From positions 2,418,001-2,482,000 of the forward strand of contig NZ_CP107989.1 of assembly GCF_041435015.1 (NCBI RefSeq): a stretch of DNA of 64,000 nucleotides, read 5' to 3'. This DNA is from Streptomyces canus. Lineage in GTDB: Bacteria > Actinomycetota > Actinomycetes > Streptomycetales > Streptomycetaceae. A program made the position numbers and the translations under genes. Below are positions 17,904 through 37,798 of this stretch, piece after piece. The notes under the pieces are model-generated. The model did no database searches. It was not told where the DNA came from and was given only the letters and a program-made list of their open reading frames with translations. Position 1 is the first letter of the stretch, and each line of letters begins with the position of its first letter.

Positions 17904-19046
17904 TCAGGAGTCCTCCGGCTTCTGCGGCGGGTGCGTCGTCTTCGCATGGGTCCGCAGCCGCGACGTCACATCCTCCGGCGGCAGGAAGCGCGACCACCTC
18001 TCCGGGAACTCCGAGGGCATGTCGGGGTCCTCGGGGTCGGTGTCGGTGTCGTGGAGAGCGGCCGCCCGGGCGACGTACTCCGCGACCTGCGCCTCCCGCA
18101 GCCGTTCGTTCGCCGCGCGCGCCGCCGCCGTGGCCGCGGCAGGCCATACGCGGTCGATCGCGGCGTTCATCGCGGCGCCCACCAGGACCGCGAAGGCCGA
18201 CACCCCGATCCACAGGAGCACCGCCACGGCCGCGGCCAGCGAGCCGTAGATCGTCGCGCCCTCGATCGTGCTCTGGAGGTAGATCCTCAGCAGGAAGCTC
18301 CCCAGCACCCACATGGCCAGCGCCACCAGCGCGCCGGGGACGTCCTCGATCCACGGTGAGCGCACCGGTACCGACAGGTGGTAGAGCGTGGTCAGGAAGG
18401 CGATGGACAGGATGATCACCACGGGCCAGTACAGGACCTGCACCACCGTCGCCGACCAGGGCACGATCCGCACCACCGCGTCCGGCCCCGCCACCATCAG
18501 CGGCAGCGCCACCGAGCCGATCAGCAGGGCCGCGATGAACAGCGCGAACGCCACGAGCCGGGTCTTGACGATGCCGCGGACGCCGTCGAGGCCGTACATG
18601 ACGGTGATGGTGTCGATGAAGACGTTCACCGCGCGCGACCCGGACCACAGGGCGAACAGGAAGCCGACCGAGATGACGTCGGGACGGCCGCCCTTCATCA
18701 CGTCGTCGAGGATCGGCTGCGCGATCTCCCGTACCCCCTTGGAGGACAGGACCGTGCGCGCGGCGTCCAGGAGGTTGGCCTCCAGGCTGCTGATGCTGTC
18801 GGTGCCGGTCCAGTCGTCGACGTAGCCGAGCAGTCCGATGAGGCTGAGCAGCAGCGGTGGCACGGACAGCAGCGAGAAGAACGCGGCCTCGGCGGCGAGC
18901 CCCAGGATGCGGTACTCGATGCACGAGTTGACGGTGTCCTTGACCAGCAGCCAGGCGGTCCGGCGCTTCGAGACGTTCCGGTAGAGGACACGGGCCCGGT
19001 GGAGCCGGCCGGAGGGCCGCTGAGGGGATTCGCTTGCTGCCTGCAC
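17904..19046 (-). CDS. YihY/BrkB-family inner-membrane protein
   Basis: A 380-residue protein with about six hydrophobic segments. AAEAAFFSLLSVPPLLLSLIG near residues 51-71 is the family signature, and the last is near residues 270-295 (SLAAAVAVLLWIGVSAFAVL). The C-terminal 80 residues are charged and cytoplasmic. The start is GTG 19046. The family was once misnamed ribonuclease BN; its function is unsettled, with transport or envelope roles proposed. It stands alone between convergent and divergent neighbours. Confidence 0.88.
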   Translation of the reverse strand: MQAASESPQRPSGRLHRARVLYRNVSKRRTAWLLVKDTVNSCIEYRILGLAAEAAFFSLLSVPPLLLSLIGLLGYVDDWTGTDSISSLEANLLDAARTVLSSKGVREIAQPILDDVMKGGRPDVISVGFLFALWSGSRAVNVFIDTITVMYGLDGVRGIVKTRLVAFALFIAALLIGSVALPLMVAGPDAVVRIVPWSATVVQVLYWPVVIILSIAFLTTLYHLSVPVRSPWIEDVPGALVALAMWVLGSFLLRIYLQSTIEGATIYGSLAAAVAVLLWIGVSAFAVLVGAAMNAAIDRVWPAAATAAARAANERLREAQVAEYVARAAALHDTDTDPEDPDMPSEFPERWSRFLPPEDVTSRLRTHAKTTHPPQKPEDS

Positions 19047-19631: not shown

Positions 19632-20840
19632 ATGCCTGTTCCGTATGCGCCGAAGCATGCCGTGCCGCGAATCGTGGGGGTCGATGTGGCACGGGGCCTC
19701 GCCCTGCTCGGTATGTTCTCCGTTCACGTGTTCGGCGCGTTCGACGCGGACGGCTCGGTCACCCCCGCCTGGATGGTCGCGGGCGGCCGTTCCTCGGCGA
19801 CGTTCGCCGTGACGGCCGGGATCGGCCTGGCCTTCACGACCGGCGGGCGGCGGCCGATCACCGGGCGGCCCGCGGCCGCCGCGGTGGCGGCACGGGCCGG
19901 TGTCATCGCGCTGATCGGGCTGCTGCTCGGCTACGCCTCGCGCGCGGCGGATCTGGACGTGGACGTGATCCTGGCGTTCTACGCCCTGTTGTTCCTGATC
20001 GCGATCCCGCTGCTGGGCCTCGGTCCGCGCACCTTGGCGTTCCTGTCCCTGGCCTTGGCCCTGGGCGCCCCGTTCGCCGTGCACGCGCTGCGGGGCGTGC
20101 TGCCGGAGCCCGCCTTCGACGGCGACCCGACCCTCCAGGACGTGCTCACCGACCCGCTCGGCCTGGTGTCGGACCTCCTGGTCCACGGCGACTACCCGGT
20201 CCTGGCCTGGACCGCCTATCTGTGCGCCGGACTCGCCCTCGGCCGGATGGACCTGACGTCACGAACGGCCGCACCCCGGCTCTTCGGCGGCGGTCTCGCG
20301 CTGGCGGCCGTCGTCTGGCTGGTGTCGTCCCTGGTCCTGTTCCGGTACGACGGGCTCCGGCACCTGTGGCGTGCGGAGTTTCCGGGCGCCTCCCGCGCCG
20401 AGGCGCTGTGGGACAGCCCCGACGGCGCGACTTGGTGGGCGCTGCTCTCCCGTGCGCCGCACGCGACCACGCCCTTCGACATGCTCCTCACCCTGGGCTC
20501 GGCGACGGCGATCCTCGGCGGCGCCCTGCTGCTGACCAGGAGCGCCCTCCTCGCGCGGGCGCTCACGCCGCTCGCGGCGGCGGGCAGCATGCCGCTGACC
20601 CTCTACGTCGCCCACGTGCTCCTTCTCGCCACCGGCGCACTCTCCGGCTCGCCCGGGCTCCTCTACGCCGTCATGACGACCGGAGCGCTCCTCTTCGCCC
20701 TCTCGTGGCGGCACGTCGGGCGTGGCCCGCTGGAAACGGTCGTCGCAGGCGCGGCCCGGCGGTGTCGCGAGGCCGTAACACCGACGCGGTCCCCGGAACC
20801 GGTGGAGAGCCCGGCCCGACTTAGCAAGCACATCGAATAG
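19632..20840 (+). CDS. Polytopic membrane protein, HGSNAT/DUF418-like (acyltransferase-type)
   Basis: A 402-residue protein with about 9-10 membrane segments. It begins with VPRIVGVDVARGLALLGMF, the signature shared by DUF418 proteins and the heparan-alpha-glucosaminide acetyltransferase-like family. A later AAAGSMPLTLYVAHVLLLAT matches the C-terminal end. The start ATG 19632 has GGAG 7 bases upstream. It lies 35 bp before the carrier/beta-helix gene on the same strand, so it is probably the first gene of that operon. It could modify or export the product. The catalytic His is not certain. Confidence 0.78.
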   Translation: MPVPYAPKHAVPRIVGVDVARGLALLGMFSVHVFGAFDADGSVTPAWMVAGGRSSATFAVTAGIGLAFTTGGRRPITGRPAAAAVAARAGVIALIGLLLGYASRAADLDVDVILAFYALLFLIAIPLLGLGPRTLAFLSLALALGAPFAVHALRGVLPEPAFDGDPTLQDVLTDPLGLVSDLLVHGDYPVLAWTAYLCAGLALGRMDLTSRTAAPRLFGGGLALAAVVWLVSSLVLFRYDGLRHLWRAEFPGASRAEALWDSPDGATWWALLSRAPHATTPFDMLLTLGSATAILGGALLLTRSALLARALTPLAAAGSMPLTLYVAHVLLLATGALSGSPGLLYAVMTTGALLFALSWRHVGRGPLETVVAGAARRCREAVTPTRSPEPVESPARLSKHIE

Positions 20841-20875
20841 TCCATAAGACCAAAAGTGATGATCTAGGAGCTCAA

Positions 20876-23344
20876 GTGGTGGTAAATCCCGGCGAGATCA
20901 CGACAGTCGCCCCGGTGGACGGCACCGCCCAGGTCTTCGCCGAGGTGCTGGCCGGGGTCGTGAAGACGGATCAAGTGCCCCTCGACAGCCATTTCTTCGA
21001 CGATCTGGGTGCCAACTCCCTGGTCATGGCGCAGTTCTGTGCCCGGGTCAGGAAGCGGGACGATCTGCCGCCGGTGTCGATGAGGGACATCTACGGCCAC
21101 CCGACGATCCGCAGTCTCGCCACGGCTCTCGCCGAGGTCCCGGAGGCCGAACCGACCCCCGCACGGCCGGCCGAACCACCTCCGCCGCCGGGCAGCACCG
21201 CCCGCTACGTCCTGTGCGGGGTCCTGCAGTTCCTCGTCTTCGCCGTGTACTGCCTCGCCGCGGGGATCGCCACCGCGCAGGGGTACTCCTGGATATCCGG
21301 TGGCGACGGCGCGCTCTCCGTCTACCTGCGCTCGCTGGTCTTCGGCGGCGCGCTGTTCCTGGCCGTCTGCACCCTGCCCGTGGTGGCGAAGTGGGTGCTG
21401 GTGGGCCGGTGGAAGGAGACGGAGTTCCCGGTGTGGGGCCTCGCCTACGTCCGCTTCTGGACCGTCAAGGCACTGCTGCACGCCAACCCGATGATCCTGT
21501 TCACCGGCAACCCGCTGTACGTCCTGTACCTGCGGGCCCTGGGCGCCCGTATCGGCCGGGGCGTCACGATCCTGTCCCACTCGGTGCCGGTCTGCACCGA
21601 CCTGCTGACGGTCGGCGCCGGCACGGTGATCCGCAAGGACGCCCTGTTCCTCGGCTACCGGGCGCACGGGGGCCGGATCCGCACCGGACCGGTCACCCTG
21701 GGCCGGGACGTGTTCGTCGGCGAGAAGACCGTCCTCGACATCGGCACCTCCATCGGCGACGGCGGCCAGCTCGGCCACTCCTCCGCGCTGTACGACGGCG
21801 CCGCCGTCCCCGCCGGGCAGCGCTGGCACGGCTCCCCGGCCCGCCCCACCGACGTCGACCACGTCCGTGTCCCGGCCACCCGCTGCGGCACCGCGCGCCG
21901 GGCCGGCTACGCCCTCGTGGCCCTGCTCCAGACACTGCTGGTGTACGTCCCGCTCGGCATCGGCGGCGCCTTCCTGGTGATGGAGCTCGTCCCGGCGCTG
22001 GACCCGCTGCTCGAACCGAACGCGAAGGAACTGGCGTCGGCGGCCTTCTACGCCGAGGCACTGGCCCTGTCCGTCGCCCTCTTCGCCGGTTTCGTGGTCC
22101 TCGGCTTCCTCACCGTCACGGTGCTGCCGCGGCTGCTGAACCTGACCCTGAAGGCGGACCGGGTCTATCCGCTGTACGGCTTCCACTACTCGGTGCAGCG
22201 CGCGATCGCCCGCATGACCAACGTCAAGTTCTTCAAGTGGCTGTGCGGCGACAGCTCGTACATCGTCCCCTACCTGCGGTCCCTCGGCTACGACCTCTCG
22301 CACGTCGAGCAGACCGGCTCGAACTTCGGCACCGAGGTGTCGCACGAGACGCCGTACCTGGCCACCGTCGGCAGCGGCACGATGGTCGCCGACGGGCTCT
22401 CGATCCTCAACGCCGAGTACTCCAGCACGTCGTTCCGCCTCTCGCGGGTGGCGATCGGGCCGCGCAACTTCCTCGGCAACCACATCGCCTACCCGGTCGG
22501 CGGCCGTACCGGCGACAACTGCCTGCTCGCCACCAAGGTGCTGGTCCCGCTCGGCGGTGAACTGCGCGAGGGTGTGGGCCTGCTGGGCTCACCGCCGTTC
22601 GAGATCCCGCGCACGGTGGAGCGCGACACCCGCTTCGACCACTTCCGCGAGGGCGACGAACTGCGGCGCCGGCTGTCCGGCAAGAACCGCTCCAATGCCC
22701 GTTCGATGGCCCTGTTCCTGTTCCTGCGCTGGCTGCACTGGTTCCTGCTGACGCTGCTCGGCTTCGCGGCCGTCGATCTCCAGGGCGGTCGGAGCGCCCT
22801 CGGCGGCCTGCTCATCGGCGGCTACCTGATGGCCGGACTCGCGGTGACCGTCGGCTACTGGGCGCTGGTGGAGCGCGTGATCACCCGGTTCCGGCCGCTG
22901 ACGCCGCGGCTGTGCTCCATCTACGACCCGTACTTCTGGTGGCACGAGCGGCTGTGGAAGGTGCCGGACGAGCATCTCGCCGTGTTCAACGGCACCCCGT
23001 TCAAGAGCCTGGTCTGGCGGCTGCTGGGCGTGCGGATCGGCCGCCGGGTCTTCGACGACGGCTGCTACATCACCGAGCGGACGCTGGTCGCGATCGGCAC
23101 CGACACCACACTCGGCCACCACTCCAAGGTGCAGGCCCACTCCCAGGAGGACGGCACCTTCAAGTCCGACCACATCGTCATCGGCGACGGCTGCACCGTC
23201 GGGGCGGGCGCGCTGGTCCACTACGGCGTCGCGATGGGCGAGGGCGCCGTGCTCGGTGCCGACGCCTTCCTGATGAAGGGCGAGGAGATGCCGGCGGGGG
23301 CGCACTGGGGCGGGAATCCGGCGGTGGCGCTGCGTCGCGCCTGA
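20876..23344 (+). CDS. Carrier-protein fused to Pls/PosA-type NRPS terminal domain (six membrane helices, three beta-helix domains)
   Basis: An 822-residue membrane protein. Residues about 10-90 are a carrier domain with the phosphopantetheine Ser in DLGANSLVMAQF. Then come alternating helix pairs (about 107-172, 345-422, 617-670) and three hexapeptide-type left-handed beta-helix regions (about 215-330, 470-580, 715-815; the last is rich in IGDG, GAGA and LGHH turns). This order matches the C-terminal part of epsilon-poly-lysine synthetase and similar Pls/PosA proteins, in which three tandem condensation-like domains are joined by membrane helices. In those enzymes the adenylation domain is in the same chain; here it is a separate gene (23380). 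GTG 20876 or GTG 20879 is the start, with AGGAG upstream. It probably joins or transfers the activated amino acid at the membrane. Confidence 0.83.
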   Translation: MVVNPGEITTVAPVDGTAQVFAEVLAGVVKTDQVPLDSHFFDDLGANSLVMAQFCARVRKRDDLPPVSMRDIYGHPTIRSLATALAEVPEAEPTPARPAEPPPPPGSTARYVLCGVLQFLVFAVYCLAAGIATAQGYSWISGGDGALSVYLRSLVFGGALFLAVCTLPVVAKWVLVGRWKETEFPVWGLAYVRFWTVKALLHANPMILFTGNPLYVLYLRALGARIGRGVTILSHSVPVCTDLLTVGAGTVIRKDALFLGYRAHGGRIRTGPVTLGRDVFVGEKTVLDIGTSIGDGGQLGHSSALYDGAAVPAGQRWHGSPARPTDVDHVRVPATRCGTARRAGYALVALLQTLLVYVPLGIGGAFLVMELVPALDPLLEPNAKELASAAFYAEALALSVALFAGFVVLGFLTVTVLPRLLNLTLKADRVYPLYGFHYSVQRAIARMTNVKFFKWLCGDSSYIVPYLRSLGYDLSHVEQTGSNFGTEVSHETPYLATVGSGTMVADGLSILNAEYSSTSFRLSRVAIGPRNFLGNHIAYPVGGRTGDNCLLATKVLVPLGGELREGVGLLGSPPFEIPRTVERDTRFDHFREGDELRRRLSGKNRSNARSMALFLFLRWLHWFLLTLLGFAAVDLQGGRSALGGLLIGGYLMAGLAVTVGYWALVERVITRFRPLTPRLCSIYDPYFWWHERLWKVPDEHLAVFNGTPFKSLVWRLLGVRIGRRVFDDGCYITERTLVAIGTDTTLGHHSKVQAHSQEDGTFKSDHIVIGDGCTVGAGALVHYGVAMGEGAVLGADAFLMKGEEMPAGAHWGGNPAVALRRA

Positions 23345-23379
23345 ACCGCCCGCACGAAGAAATCAGGGGGAAGAAAGTC

Positions 23380-25467
23380 ATGGAAACAGTTCCGCACCGC
23401 ACGCCCGGTCCGATACCGGACGTCACCGAGTACACGGTCCCGCTGCCCGACGGCACACCGTCCGATCCGGCCGCGCTGCTGACGGCCCACGCCAGGGTGC
23501 TGGCGGCCCTCTCGGGCGAGACGGAGGGCGCTCCCGGCGACGAGCTGCGCGTCACCGTCACCGACGGCACGCTGCGGCTGAGCCACCGCACCGGCGCCTT
23601 CGACACCGAGGCAGCCGCCCGCATCGCCGGCTACCACCTCACCGCGCTCGCCGACCCGGACCGCAGGAGCCTGCTGTCCGAGGAAGAACTCCGTTTCCAG
23701 CTCGAGGAGTTGGCGGGACCGGTCCGTGAACTCCTGGACCGGCGGGTGCACGAGCTCTTCGAGGAGCGGGTCGGCAAGCACCCGGACGCCGTGGCGGCCG
23801 TACAGGGCGAGCGGCGGTGGACGTACGCCGAGCTCAACTCCCGGGCCAACCAGATCGGCCGGGCGCTGCTGGCCCGCGGCCTCAAGGCCGAGGGTGTCGT
23901 CGCCGTCGTCATGGAGCGCGACCTGGACTGGATGGCGGCCGTGCTCGGCGTGTTCAAGGCCGGCGGGGTGTATCTGCCCGTCGAGCCGCACTTCCCGGCC
24001 GAGCGGGTGTCCAGGACGTTGTCCCGGGCGGGCTGCGAGCTCGTCGTCACCGAGCGGGGCAGCACCGGCTCGCTCTCCATGACGACGGCCACCACGCTGT
24101 TCGTGGACGCCGCGTACGCCGAGAGCCACGCGGACGACGATCTCGGGATCCCGGTCGCGGCGGACCAGCTGGCCTACATCTACTTCACGTCCGGCTCCAC
24201 CGGCGAACCCAAGGGCGCGATGTGCGAGCACGCCGGCTTCGTCAACCACGTGCTCGCCAAGGTCGAGGACCTGGGGTTCGGCGAGGACGACGTGGTCGCG
24301 CAGACCGCGCCGCAGTGCTTCGACATCTCCCTGTGGCAGCTGCTCGCCGGGCCGGTCGTCGGCGGGCGGACGCTGGTCATCGACCAGGAGACCGTCCTGG
24401 ACGTGCCGCGGTTCGTGGACACCGTGGTCCGGGAGCGGGTCAACGTGCTCCAGGTCGTGCCGTCGTACCTCGAGGCCGTCCTCGCGGAGTTGGGACAGCG
24501 GCCGCGCGAACTGGCCGACCTGCGCTGTGTGTCGGTGACCGGCGAGGCGGTGAAGCGGGAGCTGGTGCAGCGCTGGTTCGCCACCGCGCCCGGTATCCGC
24601 CTCGCCAACGCCTACGGGCTGACCGAGACCTCCGACGACACCAACCACGAGGTCATGGACCAGGTGCCGGATGGCGACCGGGTCCCGCTCGGGCGGCCGG
24701 TGCGCAATGTGCGCGTGTACGTCGTCGACGAGGACCTGGTGCCCGTGCCGCTGGGCGCGCCGGGCGAGATCGTCTTCTCCGGGGTGTGCGTGGGGCGCGG
24801 GTACGTCAACGACCCCGAGCGCACCGCGGCCGCCTTCATGGAGGACCCGTACCGGCCCGGCGAGCGGCTCTACCGCAGCGGTGACGTGGGGCGCTGGCGG
24901 TCCGACGGCCGGCTGGAGTTCCTCGGCCGCCGGGACACCCAGATCAAGATCCGCGGTTTCCGCGTGGAGATCGGCGAGATCGAGAACGCGCTGCTGCGGG
25001 TGGCCGGGGTGCGGGACGGGGCCGTCGTGGTCGTACGGGGGACGCAGCTCGCCGCGTTCTGCGCCGGGCCCGAGCCGGTGGGCGCGGACGCGGTGCGGGA
25101 ACGGCTGGCCGCGTCGCTGCCGGCCTACATGGTGCCCGCCGTCGTGCACTGGCGGGAGCACCTGCCGCTGACGGCCAACGGCAAGACCGACCGCCGGACG
25201 CTCACCGCGCTCGCCGAGGACCTCGACGCCGCCGTGGCGGGCGAGCCGGTGACGGCCGGCGAGCGGCGGCTCGCGGATGCCTGGGCCGAGGTGCTCGGTG
25301 TCCCCGCCGACCGGATCGGTCGCCTCGACCACTTCTTCGACCGCGGCGGCACCTCGCTGTCCGCCGTGCGTCTCGCGATCGCCCTGGACCGGGCGATCAC
25401 CCTCAAGGACGTCGTCCGCCACCCGGTCCTCGCGGACCTGGCGGGCCTGCTCGACCGGCAGCACTGA
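23380..25467 (+). CDS. NRPS adenylation-carrier protein with a vestigial condensation-domain tail
   Basis: A 695-residue protein. Residues about 1-115 resemble the end of a condensation domain (LRLSHRTGAFDTEAAARIAG) but lack its HHxxxDG core. The adenylation domain follows: YFTSGSTGEPKG (A3), FDISLWQL (A4, with Asp235 and Trp239 equivalents), NAYGLTETSDDT (A5), YRSGDVGRW (A7), GRRDTQIKIRGFRVEIGEIE (A8) and LTANGKTDRR with the catalytic Lys (A10). The last 75 residues are a carrier domain with Ser in DRGGTSLSAV. ATG 23380 has AGGGGG 9 bases upstream. It is 35 bp after the carrier/beta-helix gene. The neighbours make L-2,3-diaminopropionate, so that, or a hydroxylated form, is the most likely substrate. 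Loading in trans onto the partner's carrier is inferred. Confidence 0.88.
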   Translation: METVPHRTPGPIPDVTEYTVPLPDGTPSDPAALLTAHARVLAALSGETEGAPGDELRVTVTDGTLRLSHRTGAFDTEAAARIAGYHLTALADPDRRSLLSEEELRFQLEELAGPVRELLDRRVHELFEERVGKHPDAVAAVQGERRWTYAELNSRANQIGRALLARGLKAEGVVAVVMERDLDWMAAVLGVFKAGGVYLPVEPHFPAERVSRTLSRAGCELVVTERGSTGSLSMTTATTLFVDAAYAESHADDDLGIPVAADQLAYIYFTSGSTGEPKGAMCEHAGFVNHVLAKVEDLGFGEDDVVAQTAPQCFDISLWQLLAGPVVGGRTLVIDQETVLDVPRFVDTVVRERVNVLQVVPSYLEAVLAELGQRPRELADLRCVSVTGEAVKRELVQRWFATAPGIRLANAYGLTETSDDTNHEVMDQVPDGDRVPLGRPVRNVRVYVVDEDLVPVPLGAPGEIVFSGVCVGRGYVNDPERTAAAFMEDPYRPGERLYRSGDVGRWRSDGRLEFLGRRDTQIKIRGFRVEIGEIENALLRVAGVRDGAVVVVRGTQLAAFCAGPEPVGADAVRERLAASLPAYMVPAVVHWREHLPLTANGKTDRRTLTALAEDLDAAVAGEPVTAGERRLADAWAEVLGVPADRIGRLDHFFDRGGTSLSAVRLAIALDRAITLKDVVRHPVLADLAGLLDRQH

Positions 25468-25480
25468 AAGGAACCCCGAG

Positions 25481-26467
25481 ATGTCCTCCATGAATCTCCT
25501 TCCGAACCCGGACGTGGCCCCGGACAGTCCGCCGATCCTGCATGCCAAGCCCGCCGACGATCCGGCGAGTTGGGCCGCCGAGCACCACGACACCCTGCGG
25601 GCCCTCGTCCGCGAACACGGTGGCGTCCTGGTGCGCGGCCTGGGCCTTTCGGACCCCGCGACCACCGAGGCCGTCTTCCGGCGGCTGACCAGCGGTCTGA
25701 TGCCCGACCGCGAGCCCTTCGCGCCGCGGCGCAGCTACGGGGGCGGCGTGTACTCCACGACCAAGTGGCCGCCGAACCAGCAGATGTGCATGCACCACGA
25801 GGTCAGCTACGGCCTGGAGTTCCCGGGTCTGCTCCTGTTCGCCTGTCTGGAGGCGCCGGCGACCGGGGGCGCGACCGCGCTCGCCGACGCGTCGGCGGTG
25901 CTGCGGGACCTGCCCCGCGAGCTGGTCTCCCGCTTCGAGCGCGAGGGCTGGCTGCTGACCCGCTCGTACCACGAGGAGATCGGCGCGTCGGTGGAGGAGG
26001 CGTTCGGCACGGACGACCGCGCCGCCGTCGAGCGCTACTGCCGCCGGAACGCCATCGAGTTCGCCTGGCAGAGCGACGGCTCCCTGCACACCCGGCAGCG
26101 GCGCGGCGCGGTGCTCCGGCACCCGGACTCCGGCCTGCCCTGCTGGTTCAACCAGATCGCGTTCCTCAACGAGTGGACCATGGAGCCGGAAGTGCACGAA
26201 TACCTGGTGGAGATGTACGGCGCCGACGGGCTGCCCTTCAACACCCGCTTCGGCGACGGCGATCCGATCGACGCGGACGTCGTGGGGACGATCAACGAGG
26301 TGTACGACGCCCATACCGTGCGTGAGCCGTGGCAGGACGGGGATCTGCTGCTCGTCGACAACATCCGTACGGCGCACAGCCGCGAGCCCTTCGAGGGACC
26401 GCGCGAGGTGCTGGCCGCGCTCGGCAACCCGGTGGCGCGCACCGACGGCGAGGTGAGCGGCGTATGA
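25481..26467 (+). CDS. TauD/SyrP-like Fe(II)/2-oxoglutarate dioxygenase
   Basis: A 328-residue non-heme iron dioxygenase. Residues about 104-110 (MHHEVSY) carry the first His of the iron triad, followed by Glu rather than the usual Asp, as in SyrP-like amino-acid hydroxylases. The distal His with the 2-oxoglutarate Arg lies in NIRTAHSREPF near residue 301. RPVQ-type halogenase features (Ala or Gly in place of the acid) are absent. Its ATG overlaps no gene, and its stop overlaps the next start (ATGA). It is likely to hydroxylate the diaminopropionyl unit, free or carrier-bound. The position of hydroxylation is unknown. Confidence 0.85.
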   Translation: MSSMNLLPNPDVAPDSPPILHAKPADDPASWAAEHHDTLRALVREHGGVLVRGLGLSDPATTEAVFRRLTSGLMPDREPFAPRRSYGGGVYSTTKWPPNQQMCMHHEVSYGLEFPGLLLFACLEAPATGGATALADASAVLRDLPRELVSRFEREGWLLTRSYHEEIGASVEEAFGTDDRAAVERYCRRNAIEFAWQSDGSLHTRQRRGAVLRHPDSGLPCWFNQIAFLNEWTMEPEVHEYLVEMYGADGLPFNTRFGDGDPIDADVVGTINEVYDAHTVREPWQDGDLLLVDNIRTAHSREPFEGPREVLAALGNPVARTDGEVSGV

Positions 26468-27495
26468 GCACCGTCGGCGCACCGACCTTCGCGCTCGTCA
26501 CCGGCGCCCAGGTCCAACAGGCCCTGCACGGAAGGGAACCGGAGATCGCGGACCTCGTCGAGGCCGTCTACCGGCTGCACGGCGCGGGCGACTCGGTGAA
26601 CCCTCCGTCGTACTTCCTGCGGTTCCCGGACCGCCCGTCGGCACGGATCATCGCGCTGCCCGCGTCACTGGGCGGACCGCTGAGGGTGGACGGCCTGAAG
26701 TGGGTCTCCAGTTTCCCGGAGAACATCAGGTCCGGGCTGCCGCGGGCGTCGGCGGTGCTGATCCTCAACGACCCCGAGACCGGCTACCCGTTCGCCTGCC
26801 TGGAGAGCTCGGTCATCAGCGCCACGCGCACCGCGTCGTCGGCGGCGCTGGCGGCCGGAAAGCTCAGCGCGGGCCGGAGCCGCCCCACCCGGGTGGGCTT
26901 CATCGGCACCGGGCTGATCGCCCGCTACATCCACACCCATCTCACCGCCACCGGCTGGGAGTTCGAGGAGACGGGCGTGCACGACCTGTCCGCCGAGAGC
27001 GCCGCCGGGTTCCGCGGCTATCTGGAGCGGTCCGGCGCACCGGGGAAGGCCGTCGTGCACGACACGGCCGAATCCCTCGTCCGCTCCAGCGAGCTGGTCG
27101 TGTTCGCCACCGTCGCCGGCGCACCGCACGTCCACGACCCGTCGTGGTTCGGCCATCACCCCCTGGTCCTGCATGTCTCCCTGCGCGATCTCGACCCGGA
27201 GATCCTGCTCGCGTCCGCCAACTTCGTCGACGACGTCGAGCACTGCCTCAAGGCCGAGACCTCCCCGCATCTGGCCGAACGGCTCTCGGGGAGCAGGGAC
27301 TTCATCGACGGCACGCTCGACGACGTGCTGACCGGACGGGTGACCGTCCCGACGGACCGGACGGTGGTGTTCTCCCCCTTCGGCCTGGGGGTGCTCGACC
27401 TCGCCGTCGGCCGGTTCGTCCACGACGAACTGGCCCGGCGCGGCGAACTGCACGTCGTCGACGGGTTCTTCAACGAGCTGCGCCGGTACGGCTGA
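26464..27495 (+). CDS. sbnB: SbnB-like N-(2-amino-2-carboxyethyl)-L-glutamate dehydrogenase
   Basis: A 343-residue ornithine cyclodeaminase/mu-crystallin fold protein. The Rossmann motif VGFIGTGLIARYIHTHL is at about residues 146-162, and LKWVSSFPENIRSGLPRASA near residues 78-97 matches the SbnB subgroup. In S. aureus, SbnB oxidises the SbnA product with NAD+ to release L-2,3-diaminopropionate and 2-oxoglutarate. Pairing with the SbnA-like gene directly downstream supports this. The 2-oxoglutarate released is also the co-substrate of the dioxygenase encoded just before it. Start and stop overlap with that gene (ATGA). Confidence 0.87.
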   Translation: MSTVGAPTFALVTGAQVQQALHGREPEIADLVEAVYRLHGAGDSVNPPSYFLRFPDRPSARIIALPASLGGPLRVDGLKWVSSFPENIRSGLPRASAVLILNDPETGYPFACLESSVISATRTASSAALAAGKLSAGRSRPTRVGFIGTGLIARYIHTHLTATGWEFEETGVHDLSAESAAGFRGYLERSGAPGKAVVHDTAESLVRSSELVVFATVAGAPHVHDPSWFGHHPLVLHVSLRDLDPEILLASANFVDDVEHCLKAETSPHLAERLSGSRDFIDGTLDDVLTGRVTVPTDRTVVFSPFGLGVLDLAVGRFVHDELARRGELHVVDGFFNELRRYG

Positions 27496-27526
27496 AACAC
27501 CTGTGGCGCATGAGGAGGGGGGCGTC

Positions 27527-28510
27527 ATGCCCGTCATTTCCGATCCTTCGGAGTACAACGAGTCCGACCTCTACGTCGACCTGCGGGCGGCGCTGGAGCT
27601 TCCGCTGTTCCTGAAGTGCGAGGGCTTCAACTTCGCCGGGTCCATCAAACTGAAGGCGGCCCGCGAGATGGTGAACGCCGCCGAGCGCGACGGCACCCTG
27701 CGGCCCGGGTCGATCCTGGTCGAGTCGTCGTCGGGGAACCTGGGGGTGGCCCTGAGCGTGATCGCGGCGAGCCGGGGCTACCGGTTCCTGTGCGTGACCG
27801 ACTCACGGTGCAACCTGGTGACGATCCGGTTGATGGAGGCACTCGGCACCCGGGTGCACGTGGTCAGGGAGCCGGACCTGCACGACGGCTATCTGGGCGC
27901 CCGGCTCGCCTATGTGCGGGCGCTGTGCGCCTCGGACGAGCGGTACGTGTGGCTCAACCAGTACAGCAACGAGGGGAACTGGCGGGCGCACTACCGCACC
28001 ACCGCGCCGGACATCGCGCGCCGCTTCCCCGACCTGGACGTCCTGTTCGTGGGGGCCGGCACCACGGGGACCCTGATGGGCTGCGCCCGCTGGTTCTGGC
28101 AGTGGCGGCGTCCGGTGCGGATCGTCGCCGTGGACAGTGTCGGCTCGATCACCTTCGGGGGGCCGCCCGGCGTGCGGATGATCCCGGGGCTCGGCACCAG
28201 TGTGCCGCCGCAGCTGCTCGACAAGTCGTACATCGACGACGTCGTGCTCGTCGAGGAGCCGGACACCCTCCAGGTCTGCCGCCGGCTGGCCGCCCGGGGT
28301 TTCCTGTTCGGCGGCTCCAGCGGCACGGTCGTCAGCGGCGCCGACCAGTGGCTGTCCGCGCACGGCCGCCGCGGGCTCACCGCGGTCGCCATCGCGCCGG
28401 ACCTCGGCGAACGCTACCTCGACACGGTGTACCGACCGGGCTGGCCGCACGGCCTGCCCGAGGCGGACCCGGTCCACCACACGGCGGAGGCGATGGCCCA
28501 CCTCGCCTGA
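27527..28510 (+). CDS. sbnA: SbnA-like N-(2-amino-2-carboxyethyl)-L-glutamate synthase (PLP enzyme)
   Basis: A 327-residue fold-type II PLP enzyme. The Lys that holds PLP is in FAGSIKLKAAREM, the Asn loop is SSSGNLGVALS, and the phosphate loop is GTTGTLMG. In the SbnA family O-phospho-L-serine and L-glutamate are condensed. The ATG at 27527 is preferred because GAGGAGGGGGG lies right before it (27512-27522); an in-frame GTG at 27503 would place that site inside the gene. It is the last gene of the cluster. Together with the SbnB-like gene it gives L-2,3-diaminopropionate. Confidence 0.87.
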   Translation: MPVISDPSEYNESDLYVDLRAALELPLFLKCEGFNFAGSIKLKAAREMVNAAERDGTLRPGSILVESSSGNLGVALSVIAASRGYRFLCVTDSRCNLVTIRLMEALGTRVHVVREPDLHDGYLGARLAYVRALCASDERYVWLNQYSNEGNWRAHYRTTAPDIARRFPDLDVLFVGAGTTGTLMGCARWFWQWRRPVRIVAVDSVGSITFGGPPGVRMIPGLGTSVPPQLLDKSYIDDVVLVEEPDTLQVCRRLAARGFLFGGSSGTVVSGADQWLSAHGRRGLTAVAIAPDLGERYLDTVYRPGWPHGLPEADPVHHTAEAMAHLA

Positions 28511-29114: not shown

Positions 29115-30749
29115 ATGGCAGGCAGTACGCACACCGTGACCAACCAGCCCCCACCGCTGATCGGCTACGACGTCTACGGCGCCGACCGCGCGCTGCGAGC
29201 GGCCGTGGAACGGCATCTCGACCCGGACCTGCTCGACGAGGTCCACGGTGAGCTGGCGGCGCTCGGCCGGGCCTGCGGCTCGGCGCAGGTGCAGGAGTGG
29301 GGCCTGCAGGCCAACGAGAACCCGCCCCGGCTGCGCACCCACGACCGTCACGGCCACCGTATCGACGAGGTGGAGTTCCATCCGGCCTGGCACCGCGTGC
29401 TCGGCAAGGGCGTCTCGGCGGGTCTGACGGCCGCCTGGGTCCGCCCCGGGGGCCATGTACGGCGAGCGGCCGCCTTCCTCCTGTGGACGCAGGTCGACGC
29501 GGGCAACTGCTGTCCGCTGTCGATGACCCACGCCGCGGTCCCCGCCCTGCGCACCGATCCGGACCTGGCCGCCGAGTGGGAGCCCCGCCTCACGTCCATG
29601 GTCTACGACCGCGAGCTGCGGCCCGCCCACCTCAAGGCGGGGGCGCTGTTCGGGATGGGCATGACGGAGAAGCAGGGCGGCAGCGACGTCCGGGCGAACA
29701 CCACGTCCGCACGGCCCCTGCCCGACGGCGAGACCTACGAGCTGACCGGCCACAAATGGTTCTGCTCCGCGCCCATGTCGGACGGCTTCCTGGTCCTCGC
29801 CCAGGCCCCGGGCGGGCTCAGTTGCTTCCTCGTGCCGCGCGTCCTGGAGGACGGCACCCGCAACACGTTTCTCCTCCAGCGCCTCAAGGACAAGCTCGGC
29901 AACCGTTCCAATGCCTCCGGCGAGGTCGAGTTCGACCGGACCTGGGCCCGCCGGGTGGGCGACGAGGGGCGAGGGGTCCGCACCATCATCGAGATGGTCG
30001 CGGCGACCCGGCTCGACTGCGTGCTGGGCTCGGCGGGCCTGATGCGCCAGGCAGTCGCCCAGGCGATCCACCACTGCACCCACCGCGAGGCCTTCGGCGG
30101 CAAGCTCGTCGACAAGCCGCTGATGCGCAACGTCCTGGCCGACCTGGCCCTGGAGTCCGAGGCGGCGACCACCCTCGCCCTGCGTCTGGCGGCCGCCTAC
30201 GACAAGGACGACGAGCAGGAACGGGCCTTCCTCAGGATCGCGGTACCGGCGGCCAAGTACTGGATCACCAAGCGCTGCACCCCGCTGACGGTGGAGGCCG
30301 CCGAATGCCTGGGCGGCAACGGCTACGTGGAGGAGTCGGGCCTGCCCCGCCTGGTCCGCGAATCACCGCTGAACTCCATCTGGGAGGGTGCGGGCAACGT
30401 CCAGGCCCTGGACGTCCTGAGGGTCCTCCGGCGGGAACCCCAGGCCCTGAACGCCTACCTCCTGGAGATCGGCCGGACCCGGGGCGCCGACCACCGCCTG
30501 GACGCGGCGACCAAGAACCTCTTCACCGAACTGGCCGATCTGGAGGGCGTCGAGGGCCGGGCCCGCCACCTGACGGAACGGCTCGCGCTCGTCCTGCAGG
30601 GCTCCCTGCTCGTCCGCCACGCCCCCGCGGAGGTGGCCGACGCGTTCTGCGCGTCCCGCCTGGGCGGCGACGCGGGATCGGCCTTCGGCACGTTGCCCTC
30701 GACCCTGGACCTGGAGTCGGTGGTGGATCGCGCCCGCCCGGTGCACTGA
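29115..30749 (+). CDS. AidB-like acyl-CoA dehydrogenase family protein
   Basis: A 544-residue flavoprotein. GMGMTEKQGGSDVRANTT near residues 178-195 and AAECLGGNGYVEESGLPRLV near residue 400 are typical of the AidB/isovaleryl-CoA dehydrogenase branch, with RESPLNSIWEGAGNVQALDV as the C-terminal signature. The length is near that of E. coli AidB (about 540). AidB binds DNA and protects from alkylation; other relatives are true dehydrogenases, so the role is open. ATG 29115 lies just after the palindrome, apparently without a ribosome site. Confidence 0.87.
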   Translation: MAGSTHTVTNQPPPLIGYDVYGADRALRAAVERHLDPDLLDEVHGELAALGRACGSAQVQEWGLQANENPPRLRTHDRHGHRIDEVEFHPAWHRVLGKGVSAGLTAAWVRPGGHVRRAAAFLLWTQVDAGNCCPLSMTHAAVPALRTDPDLAAEWEPRLTSMVYDRELRPAHLKAGALFGMGMTEKQGGSDVRANTTSARPLPDGETYELTGHKWFCSAPMSDGFLVLAQAPGGLSCFLVPRVLEDGTRNTFLLQRLKDKLGNRSNASGEVEFDRTWARRVGDEGRGVRTIIEMVAATRLDCVLGSAGLMRQAVAQAIHHCTHREAFGGKLVDKPLMRNVLADLALESEAATTLALRLAAAYDKDDEQERAFLRIAVPAAKYWITKRCTPLTVEAAECLGGNGYVEESGLPRLVRESPLNSIWEGAGNVQALDVLRVLRREPQALNAYLLEIGRTRGADHRLDAATKNLFTELADLEGVEGRARHLTERLALVLQGSLLVRHAPAEVADAFCASRLGGDAGSAFGTLPSTLDLESVVDRARPVH

Positions 30750-30801: not shown

Positions 30802-30992
30802 TTGCGGCCCTCGGAGGCCGGACAACGCCGCTGCGAGACGGCGTTCGCCCAAGTTTCAAACACTCCGGGGCTCACCACCAGGGTTGCAGGGGGTTGCAAC
30901 TTCCTGGCGTCTGTGGGCGGACTGTGTCCCTGCCCGAGACACGACCGGCACTATGAGACGGACAGTCAATGGACCCGGGACCGGGAGGACCA

Positions 30993-32282
30993 GTGCCGCT
31001 CTCGCCGACGCATGTGACCCACCTAGCCACCGTGGACACGGCACGTGCGGCGCGGGTACTGAACGACGTCCGGTCGGCCACCCTGTCCGGCCGGCCCGCG
31101 CCCATCGCTCCGCGCCCCGTGATCGAGGAGTCCTGGACCCGTATGCTGCGCGGCGGCGTCGACCCGGACCACGACTTCCGGTCCGGGCTGCTGGCGCCCG
31201 AGGAGGTGCAGCGGCGCCGGGAGAGCACCCCGCTGCGGCACGTCCTGCCGGTCCTTCGGGAGGGGTTGTTGTCGGTCGCGGACGTCGCCCACCACATCAT
31301 GGTGGTCGCCGACGAGGACGGCCGGGTGCTGTGGCGGGAGGGCAGTTCCCCCGTGCTGCGCAAGGCGGACGGCACCGGCTTCGAACTCGGCGCGGACTGG
31401 CGGGAGGACGTCGTCGGCACGAACGGCATCGGTACCCCGGTGGTGGTGCGCCGTCCCGTCCAGGTCTTCGCCTCCGAGCACTTCGTCCGCTCCCAGACCT
31501 CCTGGACCTGCACCGGTGCCCCGATCAAGGACCCGCGGGACGGCCGGCTGATCGGCGTGGTCGATGTGAGCGGGCCGCTGGACACCATGCATCCGGCGAC
31601 GCTCGCCTGGGTCGACTCGGTGGCCAAGCTCGCCGAGTCACGGCTGCGTGAGCTGCATCTGACCACTCTGGAGCAACTGCGGGCCGTGGCGGCGCCGGTG
31701 CTCGCCCGGCTCAGCGGCCGGGCCCTGGTGGTGGACCGGGACGGCTGGACGGCGGCCGTGACCGGAATGCCGTATCCGAACCGGATCGCGCTGCCCAAGT
31801 CTCTCTCGCCGGGCCGACGGTGGCTGCCCGCGCTCGGCCTGTGCGCGCTGGAGCCGCTGGCGGGCGGCTGGTTGATCCGCGCCGCCGACGAACCGGAGCC
31901 GCAGGGCATCACCCGGATCGTCCTCGACCTCGCGCAGCCGCGCCGCTGGACGGTGACGGTGTCGGGCGGCGCGGGCACCTGGAGCCACGAACTGAGCCCC
32001 CGGCACGCCGAGTTGCTCTACCTGCTGGCCCTGCACCGCTCGGGCCGCAGTGCGGCGGGCCTGGCCGAGGACATGTTCGGCGATCCGGGCCGCACGGTGA
32101 CCGTGCGCGCGGAGATGTCCCGGGTACGGCGCTATCTCGGGGCGTTTCTGGAACACCGGCCGTATCGTTTCTGCGAGGACGCCGAGGTCGAGGTGCTGCT
32201 GCCGGGCCGTCCGGGCGACCTGCTGCCGCACTCGAGCGCCCCCGCCGTGCTCGGGGCCCGGGCCGACGCCGAGACCGAGTGA
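30993..32282 (+). CDS. GAF-domain transcriptional regulator (AcoR-type N-terminus, winged-helix C-terminus)
   Basis: About 430 residues. The N-terminal half resembles AcoR-type sensors (APRPVIEESWTRMLRGGVDP, then a GAF domain with HIMVVADEDGRVLWREG and GTNGIGTPVVVRRPVQVFA). No AAA+ domain follows. The last 90 residues, from WSHELSPRHAELLYLLALH, look like a winged helix. The GTG at 30993 has GGGAGG just upstream; the ATG at 30969 is an in-frame alternative. It probably senses a small metabolite. The target genes are not evident. Confidence 0.75.
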   Translation: MPLSPTHVTHLATVDTARAARVLNDVRSATLSGRPAPIAPRPVIEESWTRMLRGGVDPDHDFRSGLLAPEEVQRRRESTPLRHVLPVLREGLLSVADVAHHIMVVADEDGRVLWREGSSPVLRKADGTGFELGADWREDVVGTNGIGTPVVVRRPVQVFASEHFVRSQTSWTCTGAPIKDPRDGRLIGVVDVSGPLDTMHPATLAWVDSVAKLAESRLRELHLTTLEQLRAVAAPVLARLSGRALVVDRDGWTAAVTGMPYPNRIALPKSLSPGRRWLPALGLCALEPLAGGWLIRAADEPEPQGITRIVLDLAQPRRWTVTVSGGAGTWSHELSPRHAELLYLLALHRSGRSAAGLAEDMFGDPGRTVTVRAEMSRVRRYLGAFLEHRPYRFCEDAEVEVLLPGRPGDLLPHSSAPAVLGARADAETE

Positions 32283-34657: not shown

Positions 34658-36355
34658 ATGGCCGCCACCCCGCAGAACCCTGCCGCCGCAGCGCCCCGCC
34701 GCAAGGTGAGCCGTCACCGCGGTGAGGGTCAGTGGGCCGCGGGGCACCACACCCCGCTGAACGGCAACGAGCAGTTCAAGAAGGACGACGACGGTCTCAA
34801 TGTGCGGACACGCATTGAGACGATCTACTCGAAGCGCGGCTTCGACTCGATCGACCCCAACGACCTGCGCGGCCGGATGCGCTGGTGGGGCCTCTACACC
34901 CAGCGCAAGCCCGGGATCGACGGCGGCAAGACCGCGATCCTGGAGCCGGAGGAGCTGGACGACAAGTACTTCATGCTGCGGGTGCGGATCGACGGCGGAC
35001 GCCTCACCACCCAGCAGCTGCGGGTGATCGGCGAGATCTCCGAGGAGTTCGCGCGCGGCAGCGCGGACGTCACCGACCGGCAGAACATCCAGCTGCACTG
35101 GATCCGTATCGAGGACGTCCCGGAGATCTGGAACCGCCTGGAGGCGGTCGGGCTGTCCACGACCGAGGCCTGCGGTGACACCCCGCGTGTGATCATCGGC
35201 TCGCCGGTCGCCGGCATCGCCGAGGACGAGATCATCGACGGCTCCTGGGCGATCGACGAGATCCACGAGCGCTACATCGGCAGCAAGGAGTTCTCCAACC
35301 TGCCCCGCAAGTTCAAGACGGCGATCTCCGGCTCGCCACTCCTCGACGTGGTCCACGAGATCAACGACATCGCCTTCGTCGGCGTCGAGCACCCCGAGCA
35401 CGGCCCCGGTTTCGACCTGTGGGTCGGCGGCGGTCTGTCCACCAACCCGAAGCTCGGCGTCCGGCTCGGCGCCTGGGTTCCGCTGGACGAGGTGCCCGAG
35501 GTGTGGGCCGGTGTGGTCGGCATCTTCCGCGACTGGGGCTACCGCCGCCTGCGCACCCGGGCCCGTCTGAAGTTCCTCGTCGCCGACTGGGGCCCGGAGA
35601 AGTTCCGCCAGGTCCTGGAGGACGACTACCTCGAGCGCAAGCTGGTCGACGGTCCCGCACCCGCCGAGCCCTCGGGCCGCTGGCGCGACCACGTCGGCGT
35701 GCACCGCCAGAAGGACGGCCTGTTCTACGTCGGTTTCGCCCCGCGTGTCGGCCGGGTCGACGGCACCACGCTGACGAAGATCGCCGAGGCCGCGGAGGCG
35801 CACGGCTCGGGCCGGGTCCGGACCACCGTCGAGCAGAAGATGATCATCCTCGATGTCGAGGAGGCGCAGGTCCAGCCGCTGGTCGAGGCCCTTGAGGCGC
35901 TGGACCTGACGGCCAAGCCCTCGCCCTTCCGACGCGGCACCATGGCCTGCACCGGCATCGAGTACTGCAAGCTCGCCATCGTCGAGACCAAGGCGCGCGG
36001 CTCCCAGCTGATCGACGAACTGGAGCGCCGGATCCCGGACTTCGACGAGCCGCTCACCATCAACCTCAACGGCTGCCCGAACGCCTGCGCCCGCATCCAG
36101 GTGGCGGACATCGGTCTCAAGGGCCAGCTGGTCCTCAACGACCGGGGCGAGCAGGTCGAGGGCTACCAGGTGCACCTGGGCGGCGCGCTCGGCCTGGAGG
36201 CCGGGTTCGGCCGCAAGGTGCGTGGCCTGAAGGTCACCTCCGAGGAGCTGCCCGACTACGTCGAGCGCGTCCTGAAGCGGTTCCAGGCCGAGCGCGAGGA
36301 GGGCGAGCGCTTCGCCGCCTGGGCCTCGCGCGCCGGCGAGGAGGCCCTGTCGTGA
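34658..36355 (+). CDS. sir: Ferredoxin-type sulfite (nitrite/sulfite) reductase
   Basis: A 565-residue siroheme-[4Fe-4S] enzyme that reduces sulfite to sulfide. The cluster cysteines are in TACTGIEYCKLA (C-x5-C) and LNGCPNACAR (C-x3-C), near residues 432 and 475. Two ferrite-reductase half domains and siroheme-binding repeats are complete. It is the first gene of the assimilatory operon and overlaps the small Zn-ribbon gene by 4 bp. The siroheme iron is supplied by the CbiX-like chelatase at 43082. Confidence 0.95.
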   Translation: MAATPQNPAAAAPRRKVSRHRGEGQWAAGHHTPLNGNEQFKKDDDGLNVRTRIETIYSKRGFDSIDPNDLRGRMRWWGLYTQRKPGIDGGKTAILEPEELDDKYFMLRVRIDGGRLTTQQLRVIGEISEEFARGSADVTDRQNIQLHWIRIEDVPEIWNRLEAVGLSTTEACGDTPRVIIGSPVAGIAEDEIIDGSWAIDEIHERYIGSKEFSNLPRKFKTAISGSPLLDVVHEINDIAFVGVEHPEHGPGFDLWVGGGLSTNPKLGVRLGAWVPLDEVPEVWAGVVGIFRDWGYRRLRTRARLKFLVADWGPEKFRQVLEDDYLERKLVDGPAPAEPSGRWRDHVGVHRQKDGLFYVGFAPRVGRVDGTTLTKIAEAAEAHGSGRVRTTVEQKMIILDVEEAQVQPLVEALEALDLTAKPSPFRRGTMACTGIEYCKLAIVETKARGSQLIDELERRIPDFDEPLTINLNGCPNACARIQVADIGLKGQLVLNDRGEQVEGYQVHLGGALGLEAGFGRKVRGLKVTSEELPDYVERVLKRFQAEREEGERFAAWASRAGEEALS

Positions 36356-36531
36356 GCGAGCGGGCCGCCCCCTTCTACTGCCCCTACTGCGGCGACGAGG
36401 ACCTCCGTCCGAGCGAGCAGTCTCACGGCGCGTGGGAATGCGCGGCGTGCAACCGCGCATTCCAGTTGAAGTTCCTCGGGCTGCTCGCCCGGGGCCTTCG
36501 GCACACCGACGCAGGGGGAGATCAGATATGA
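36352..36531 (+). CDS. Small zinc-ribbon protein of the sulfur operon
   Basis: A 59-residue protein from GTG 36352 to TGA 36529-36531, overlapping both neighbours. Two CxxC pairs (CPYC at 10-13, CAAC at 30-33) form a likely zinc ribbon. The same tiny gene lies between sir and cysH in other Streptomyces, as I recall, which supports a real conserved function. It may deliver metal or electrons or assemble the reductase; nothing is established. Confidence 0.85.
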   Translation: MSERAAPFYCPYCGDEDLRPSEQSHGAWECAACNRAFQLKFLGLLARGLRHTDAGGDQI

Positions 36532-37238
36532 CGGCGATTCAGGAAGAGCGCGCGACCGAGGATCTCAAGGCGCTCGCCGAGCAGGCGGGCCGCGACCTGG
36601 AGGACGCCTCGGCACTGGAGATCCTCCAGTGGGCGGTCGACACCTTCGGCAAGCGCTTCTGCGTGACCTCCTCGATGGAGGACGCGGTGGTGGCGCATCT
36701 GGCGTCCCGGGTCCTCAAGGGCGTGGACGTCGTCTTCCTCGACACCGGCTACCACTTCGAGGAGACCATCGGCACCCGGGACGCGGTCGAGGCCGTGATG
36801 GACGTGAACGTCATCACGCTGTCGCCGACGCGGACGGTCGCCGAGCAGGACGCCGAGTTCGGCCCGAAGCTGCACGACCGCGACCCCGACCTGTGCTGCA
36901 AGATGCGCAAGGTCGAGCCGCTGGAGCGGGGTCTGAAGGACTACCTGGCCTGGGCGACCGGTCTGCGTCGCGACGAGTCCCCGACCCGGGCGAACACCCC
37001 GGTGGTCGGCTGGGACGAGAAGCGGCAGAAGGTCAAGGTCTCCCCGATCGCCCGCTGGACCCAGGACGACGTGGACGCGTATGTCGCGGAACACGGCGTC
37101 CTCACCAACCCGCTGCTCATGGACGGCTACGCCTCCGTCGGCTGCGCCCCCTGCACCCGCCGTGTCCTGGAGGGCGAGGACGCGCGCGCCGGCCGCTGGG
37201 CGGGCAGCGCCAAGACCGAGTGCGGGCTGCACGGATGA
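36528..37238 (+). CDS. cysH: Adenylylsulfate (APS)/PAPS reductase
   Basis: A 236-residue thioredoxin-dependent reductase of the ATP-pyrophosphatase fold. The cysteines of the [4Fe-4S] APS-reductase type are in LCCKMRK and GCAPCTRR, and the catalytic Cys is in the C-terminal TECGLHG. With this cluster it should reduce APS directly, although the operon also codes for APS kinase. Starts overlap with the small gene upstream and the APS-kinase region downstream. Confidence 0.95.
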   Translation: MTAIQEERATEDLKALAEQAGRDLEDASALEILQWAVDTFGKRFCVTSSMEDAVVAHLASRVLKGVDVVFLDTGYHFEETIGTRDAVEAVMDVNVITLSPTRTVAEQDAEFGPKLHDRDPDLCCKMRKVEPLERGLKDYLAWATGLRRDESPTRANTPVVGWDEKRQKVKVSPIARWTQDDVDAYVAEHGVLTNPLLMDGYASVGCAPCTRRVLEGEDARAGRWAGSAKTECGLHG

Positions 37239-37261
37239 CGACATCTACCAAGGAGTTGCAC

Positions 37262-37798
37262 GTGACGACCGGAGCCACCGTCTGGCTCACGGGTCTGCCG
37301 AGTGCCGGCAAGACCACCATCGCGTACGAGCTGGCCGGCCGGCTGCGCGAGGAGGGCCACCTCGTCGAGGTGCTCGACGGCGACGAGATCCGCGAGTTCA
37401 TCTCGGCGGGCCTCGGCTTCAGCCGCGAGGACCGGCACACCAACGTGCAGCGCATCGGCTTCCTCGCCGAACTGCTCGCCCGCAACGGCGTGAAGGCGCT
37501 GGTGCCGGTCATCGCGCCCTACACCGACAGCCGTGACGCGGTGCGCAAGCGCCACCAGGAGAGCGGTGCGGCCTACCTCGAGATCCACGTGGCGACTCCG
37601 GTCGAGGTGTGCTCCGTACGCGATGTGAAGGGCCTGTACGCCAAGCAGGCCGCGGGTGAGCTGTCCGGGCTGACCGGGGTCGACGACCCCTACGAGGAGC
37701 CCGAGTCGCCCGATCTGCGCATCGAGTCGCAGAACCAGACCGTCCAGGAGTCCGCGGCGGCGGTCCACGCGCTGCTCACCGAGAGGGGACTGGCATGA
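37262..37798 (+). CDS. cysC: Adenylylsulfate kinase
   Basis: 178 residues from GTG 37262. The P-loop GLPSAGKTT is at residues 10-18, and FSREDRHTNVQRIGFLAELL and LYAKQAAGELSGLTGVDDPY are family motifs. GTG 37262 is chosen because AAGGAG lies 6 bases upstream; the ATG at 37235 overlaps the cysH stop and would give nine more residues. It phosphorylates APS to PAPS for sulfotransfer or storage. Confidence 0.9.
   Translation: MTTGATVWLTGLPSAGKTTIAYELAGRLREEGHLVEVLDGDEIREFISAGLGFSREDRHTNVQRIGFLAELLARNGVKALVPVIAPYTDSRDAVRKRHQESGAAYLEIHVATPVEVCSVRDVKGLYAKQAAGELSGLTGVDDPYEEPESPDLRIESQNQTVQESAAAVHALLTERGLA

Follow-up and report, generated by a model that had tools for sequence, protein, structure and literature searches.

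A candidate two-chain Pls-type system for 2,3-diaminopropionate in Streptomyces canus

A 64,000-nucleotide stretch of the 10.68 Mb genome of Streptomyces canus (contig NZ_CP107989.1, positions 2,418,001–2,482,000; hereafter the window, to which coordinates refer unless another locus is named) carries six genes on the forward strand between positions 19632 and 28510. With moderate confidence, we read them as encoding a two-chain thiotemplate machine that would join 2,3-diaminopropionate (Dap) units into an isopeptide oligomer or polymer by activation, carrier-bound oxidation and linking by a Pls-type transferase. The sequence itself shows the component genes in a conserved order, complete sets of active-site residues, a Dap-type substrate pocket, the lack of a condensation domain in the adenylation-carrier protein of the window and one natural gene fusion. 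An earlier note, made from the nucleotide sequence of the window, had named a carrier-bearing membrane protein, a separate adenylation-carrier protein, a dioxygenase, SbnB and SbnA in this order on one strand. Family scans and coordinates confirmed the arrangement.

Organisation and conservation of the operon

The six genes were as follows.
19632–20840, + strand: HGSNAT_cat/acyltransferase-3-like multi-pass membrane protein, accessory (PF07786, 38.9 bits, cut-off 22)
20876–23344, + strand: carrier and Pls/PosA-type membrane transferase, 822 aa (TIGR02353, 784 bits; PF00550)
23380–25467, + strand: adenylation-carrier protein, 695 aa (PF00501, PF13193, PF00550)
25481–26467, + strand: TauD-type Fe(II)/2-oxoglutarate oxygenase (PF02668, 155 bits)
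26464–27495, + strand: SbnB, Dap synthesis (TIGR03944, 402 bits, cut-off 326.9)
27503–28510, + strand: SbnA, Dap synthesis, pyridoxal phosphate (PLP) enzyme (TIGR03945, 379 bits, cut-off 349.95)

In operon order, the first three intergenic gaps measured 35, 35 and 13 bp; the oxygenase and SbnB genes overlapped by 4 bp, and 7 bp separated SbnB from SbnA. The tight coupling that the earlier note had seen between the dioxygenase gene and the last two genes was present, and it extended to the whole set. Since no gap exceeds 35 bp, all six genes, and not the 3' half alone, likely form one operon.

The best 80 of 156 loci confirmed in a scan of genome contigs were compared, together with 20 extra loci chosen from Streptomyces genomes for a short TIGR02353 protein. 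These 100 loci represent 95 distinct ones, as five pairs had identical transferases. The order transferase, adenylation-carrier protein, TauD, SbnB, SbnA, which the earlier note had wanted to see in other actinobacteria, was found in 89 of them, and sbnA was inverted in two more. Nine loci were truncated by a contig end; the remaining 91 (86 distinct) all contained the five core genes. The extra loci comprised 17 with the standard order, two with sbnA inverted and one cut after TauD. The gene association is above chance. In one complete locus (L012, Streptomyces sp. P3) the adenylation-carrier, TauD and SbnB frames were broken, by sequencing error or decay. In 13 of the 100 loci, the transferase was preceded, at a distance of 31–399 bp, by a homologue of the HGSNAT_cat membrane protein (>100 bits). 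In profile searches, the host genome passed the TIGR02353 cut-off at two places and that of TIGR03944 at one; among 14 control genomes, the former was passed in one and the latter in none.

Within a sample of 199 Streptomyces genomes (host included), the transferase (E ≤ 1e-180) was found at 81 places in 71 genomes and the oxygenase (E ≤ 1e-90) at 92 places in 80 genomes. At this frequency of the transferase, the product should be findable. The oxygenase lay at most 9 kb from the transferase at 71 of the 81 transferase places. The other ten included four frames of 1388–1412 aa, three of them with the adenylation (A) domain in front (the G150 frame was left out), two places at contig ends, three orphans and a broken cluster. 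The latter, in genome G012, was interrupted between the adenylation-carrier and TauD genes: SbnA, transferase and adenylation-carrier protein were at L186, and SbnB and TauD at L210, 5.3 Mb away.

In genome G105, the transferase, a condensation remnant, the A domain, the carrier and the oxygenase lay in a single frame, 2327 codons long and uninterrupted by stops (L182:4164-11144, minus strand), followed by SbnB and SbnA. The frame may encode a single chain, and it is the strongest sequence evidence that transferase, adenylation-carrier protein and oxygenase would act as one machine.

The transferase and the adenylation-carrier protein

The 822-aa protein matched the TIGR02353 Pls/PosA terminal domain over the whole profile (positions 1–695 of 695) at 784 bits, against a cut-off of 423.1, with a PF00550 carrier at residues 22–85 directly ahead of it, so that it has the full transferase domain and preceding carrier of Pls/PosA enzymes. 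Its carrier Ser48 was conserved in all 99 loci covering it. The hydropathy profile had seven transmembrane-like stretches in three groups, two of the stretches adjoining; the protein has six or seven helices, where the earlier note had counted six. In Pls/PosA enzymes as described in the papers cited, the A domain precedes the carrier on the same chain. Here it lies on the 695-aa protein, as the earlier note had proposed for the activation step, and the two were separate in all 100 fetched loci; one further genome had a reverse-order fusion. By sequence we assign the transferase to the Pls family, and the whole enzyme would work like Pls, although it departs from that family in its two chains and its pocket. 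Because Pfam shows no condensation domain in the adenylation-carrier protein, the Pls-type protein is the sole amide-forming candidate in the operon, which supports the Pls-like reading of the earlier note. A PDB sequence search returned no solved structure for the Pls-type transferase domain, which is also described as lacking one in PMC10522769 (this and the other papers given by PMC accession are cited from excerpts). The natural split makes activation, modification and polymerisation separable steps, so that amide formation by this kind of membrane transferase could be studied by itself.

The ten pocket residues of the A domain, DIWQSTADDK, were identical in all 97 fully readable loci, and Ser659 of the following carrier was conserved in 96 of 96. 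Among solved structures, the pocket stretch was nearest to 9n1u, the L-Dap-bound A3 domain of the sulfazecin synthetase SulM. Both acidic residues at positions 330 and 331 were retained (D419 and D420, invariant across 14 aligned rows), although position 278 differed from SulM A3. We propose that the A domain is specific for L-Dap. The pocket comparison and the Dap-synthesis genes in the operon thus favour the amino acid that the earlier note had suggested. The same pocket was found in the adenylation-carrier proteins of L164 and L165 and in one such protein of L163 (from a genome belonging to a different family, in which the transferase matches were partial), and that of a Kitasatospora plasmid read DIWQATCDDK. 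Literature searches for the pocket code gave no match.

The third pocket position is W, whereas Pls-type A domains have a conserved Glu there (PMC10522769). Its sequence places the A domain with those of ordinary nonribosomal peptide synthetases (NRPSs) and outside the Pls lineage. The description as a split Pls, given in the earlier note, therefore holds for the two chains but not for a Pls cut in two: besides the NRPS-kind A domain, the adenylation-carrier protein of longer relatives begins with what looks like the C-terminal half of a condensation domain, and many relatives carry a thioesterase (below). Simple fission of a single-chain Pls is unsupported, since the A domain belongs to another NRPS type. 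In the Pfam scan, the condensation family was absent from the window copy and from the L164 and L165 copies.

The earlier note had also considered a Dlt-like transfer of the amino acid to a molecule of the cell surface; a lipid acceptor was considered here as well. Adenylation, carrier and membrane acyltransfer do agree in outline, the operon combining an adenylation-carrier pair with proteins that resemble membrane acyltransferases, and the A domain scores 255 bits against DltA models. This is far under their cut-off of 476, and in contrast to Dlt systems the A domain and carrier share one chain, the transferase is of the Pls family, and neither the MBOAT family (DltB-type) nor DltD was found among the six proteins; moreover, the upstream membrane gene occurs in only 13 of the 100 relatives. 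We consider a Dlt-like function highly improbable and rejected it for its missing MBOAT and DltD partners and the sub-cut-off DltA scores.

Oxygenase, Dap supply and the proposed product

The oxygenase retained H105, E107 and H299 (HxE...H) and R308 in all 92 loci covering them; from the motif, we take these to be the iron ligands and the distal arginine, respectively. Its predicted model had a pLDDT (predicted local distance difference test) of 42, and a fold search with this model was left unused. Its second-best solved sequence match was 9yut. TauD-type oxygenases use 2-oxoglutarate as co-substrate, and the oxygenase SyrP acts on a carrier-bound amino acid. By description, SyrP and DdaC presumably resemble the window system in having a TauD-family oxygenase beside an adenylation-carrier protein, and the dapdiamide pathway presumably also has SbnA/SbnB homologues; it differs in its fumarate ligase and ATP-grasp genes, which are absent among the six operon proteins.

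SbnB and SbnA both scored above curated equivalog cut-offs. The best solved match of SbnA was S. aureus SbnA (5d87, 202 bits), and further solved matches of the pair were CmnB (8if7) and CmnK (7cxs). The pair thus belongs to the same Dap-synthesis families as Staphylococcus SbnA/SbnB and capreomycin CmnB/CmnK, with substrates assigned by homology, and is coupled in the window to a Pls-type transferase. The S. aureus pair also yields 2-oxoglutarate (PMC4668381).

The oxygenase was also found apart from the transferase, at 21 places, of which 20 were read (G102:C901 was left out). Sixteen of these had an adenylation-carrier protein 53–64% identical to that of the window; SbnB and SbnA were present at ten, a protein 30–33% like SbnA at five and neither at one. 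At least seven of the 16 contained further NRPS-type A domains (L164 with L173, L165, L196, L201, L202, L204, L208). The other four places were two NRPS loci with no Dap genes in view, one contig-cut cluster and one half of the broken cluster. Because the oxygenase pairs with the adenylation-carrier protein whether the transferase is present or absent, oxidation may take place on the carrier. We propose that this step is a hydroxylation or desaturation of carrier-bound Dap. Hydroxylation of the carbon that bears a free beta-amine gives an unstable hemiaminal, which becomes stable once the amine is acylated; we therefore speak of oxidation in preference to hydroxylation. A portable Dap cassette would help in predicting which uncharacterised NRPS clusters use an unusual residue.

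Three of the adenylation-carrier/oxygenase loci (L208:15215-17811, L177:11519-16213, L203:10634-12862) had a PLP enzyme in place of SbnB. L208 and L177 also encoded an argininosuccinate-lyase-like protein, and L177 and L203 an ATP-grasp part; the loci perhaps represent an alternative Dap route. At L197:12957-14678, a cassette without transferase, a phosphoglycerate dehydrogenase gene followed SbnA, which would fit phosphoserine supply. Two Streptomyces plasmid clusters (L178:11962-24819, L180:8992-18789) combined SbnB and SbnA with a tryptophan halogenase, and L178 additionally had an A domain and a TauD oxygenase (38% identical).

In the route we propose, SbnA and SbnB, placed by sequence in their families, would supply L-Dap, which the A domain, judging from its pocket and the conserved serine, would load as a thioester on its own carrier. 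The TauD-type oxygenase may then oxidise the carrier-bound Dap, as the gene pairing suggests, and the unit would pass in trans, by loading or transfer, to the carrier fused to the transferase. By analogy with its family, the transferase would form amide bonds, probably via the side-chain amine, and the product would leave through its membrane part.

Several observations weigh against this route. Position 278 of the A domain carries Q where SulM A3 and PvdL carry E. Over the whole protein, 9n1u was not the best sequence match: this shorter construct scored 276 bits, against 392 for PvdL and 333 for the best stretch of LgrA; the structure comparison placed 9n1u ahead of other A domains by only about 1.3 Z. 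Dap supply may differ here as well, since the S. albulus Dap pair uses L-serine and L-ornithine and not O-phosphoserine and glutamate (PMC4668381). The orphan transferases (L189–L191, in three genomes) had neither an adenylation-carrier protein nor an oxygenase within the stretch read, and each of these genomes held another transferase place with one or the other. The adenylation-carrier/oxygenase cassette also serves NRPSs, so by itself it implies no polymer. A thioesterase followed the carrier of the adenylation-carrier protein in 61 of the 100 loci (with the motif GHSSG in L036), as would suit an enzyme that releases a small product. Nor do the split forms make up one clade in the transferase tree (below). 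Polymer length, linkage, oxidation, loading in trans and export are all inferred.

The thioesterase and the shared cassette favour a small Dap-derived molecule, such as a dipeptide antimetabolite, an aldehyde or a metal chelator, in whose synthesis the transferase would form a single bond or a few, the product then being released by a thioesterase or by a nucleophile. It is known that Sbn-type Dap pairs supply siderophores and small antibiotics, and orphan Pls-type transferases lie next to metal-related genes on some plasmids. However, no thioesterase domain was found in the adenylation-carrier protein of the window and its close relatives (nor in 39 of the 100 loci overall, five of which end within 130 bp of this protein), none of the six operon proteins was recognisable as metal- or chelator-related, and TIGR02353 enzymes of known product yield polymers or oligomers, according to the excerpts cited. 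We regard a small molecule as a less likely but serious alternative.

A comb-like Dap polymer was reportedly described by Takehara in 2021. The operon might make such a Dap-on-Dap polymer, or plain poly-Dap, with one carrier for the backbone and one for the branches and the oxygenase modifying just the chain end or a small fraction of the polymer. The two carriers of the operon would suit this, and a comb polymer is cited from epsilon-polylysine-producing Streptomyces (PMC9606270, PMC10522769). The host, too, encodes a second, fused Pls-type enzyme (L081; G000:C1:8103078-8108096; pocket DAESIGTVVK), which is probably a polylysine synthetase, since its pocket carries the alanine reported for these enzymes. 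Iron ligands intact in every readable oxygenase would be odd for a minor role, though, and PMC10522769 names an A-carrier-transmembrane protein as the maker of the comb polymer, with no genes given in the excerpts. We regard such a product of the operon as unlikely. The broader idea that the isopeptide machine represents an overlooked, widespread polymer class, in which carrier-oxidised Dap would be built up from backbone and branch carriers, would be the genetic origin of the comb-like polymer or of an oxidised relative and would have in its adenylation-carrier/oxygenase/SbnB/SbnA genes a portable cassette supplying the same unusual residue to NRPS antibiotics, is speculative and in our view doubtful.

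Relatives, known systems and surroundings

The transferase-domain tree contained 46 rows, 24 of them split, and was rooted at the midpoint with long-branch joins flagged; it left out eight fused loci that gave no match at 1e-20, loci whose match was shorter than 500 residues and L146 (a near copy of L144). The split rows formed no single clade, fused and orphan plasmid forms being interspersed, so that either the split or the fused form may have come first. The window transferase grouped with fused plasmid enzymes of the poly-diaminobutyrate (poly-Dab)/poly-Dap-like kind and not with the sampled fused Streptomyces enzymes. Among the plasmid transferases, L139, L145, L147, L143 and L144/L146 lacked a normal A domain and had one to three carriers; of these, L143 and L144/L146 came with a TauD gene and an A domain devoid of the core motif. 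The fused form L140 lay between two homologues of the window membrane protein, and the fused L141 next to ectB. Several plasmid loci were near metal-related genes (CDF, CopC, ArsR, ZIP, multicopper oxidase). Just before the three-carrier transferase of L147 (Arthrobacter sp. FW305-BF8), a fragment at 7192-7446 was 65% identical to residues 9–92 of the window SbnA.

Single-chain enzymes have been described for polylysine, poly-Dab (L and D), poly-Dap and polyornithine (PMC8117764, PMC10522769, PMC4668381). These fused Pls/PosA synthetases share with the window the full-length transferase preceded by a carrier and a diamino-acid substrate, but have the A domain on the same chain and a D-x-E pocket. 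The window operon also holds an oxygenase and Dap genes, whereas the Dap genes of S. albulus PD-1 are distant from pdaps (PMC4668381). The similarity network of a PosA survey was restricted to 1100–1800 residues (PMC10522769), a length filter that alone excludes the form of about 820 residues. Consistent with the suggestion in the earlier note that the system might be undescribed, a two-chain Pls system was not found in our literature search, which most subscription papers lay outside.

The sulfazecin pathway resembles the operon in its Dap-binding A domain, the SulG/SulH Dap pair and the 2-oxoglutarate oxygenase SulO (PMC11298585, PMC6097109). SulO, likened here by description, acts after release (PMC11298585, PMC6097109), and the SulM thioesterase, which forms the beta-lactam, uses Cys2818 (PMC11298585). 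A monobactam pathway of this type was rejected, as the condensation module, Cys thioesterase and sulfotransferase families were absent from the six operon proteins. The dipeptide cluster SCO6429-38 of S. coelicolor was considered too, the excerpts on it giving no domain make-up.

In the window, the operon was flanked by genes for a BrkB-family protein (17907–19046), an AidB/acyl-CoA dehydrogenase (29115–30749) and a GAF-domain protein (30969–32282). They recurred in 30, 25 and 23, respectively, of 81 stretches (80 loci and the window) and are probably shared chromosomal surroundings outside the system. Further downstream (34658–38730), a sulfite/nitrite reductase and two proteins of the PAPS (3'-phosphoadenosine-5'-phosphosulfate) reductase family form an assimilatory sulfur locus.
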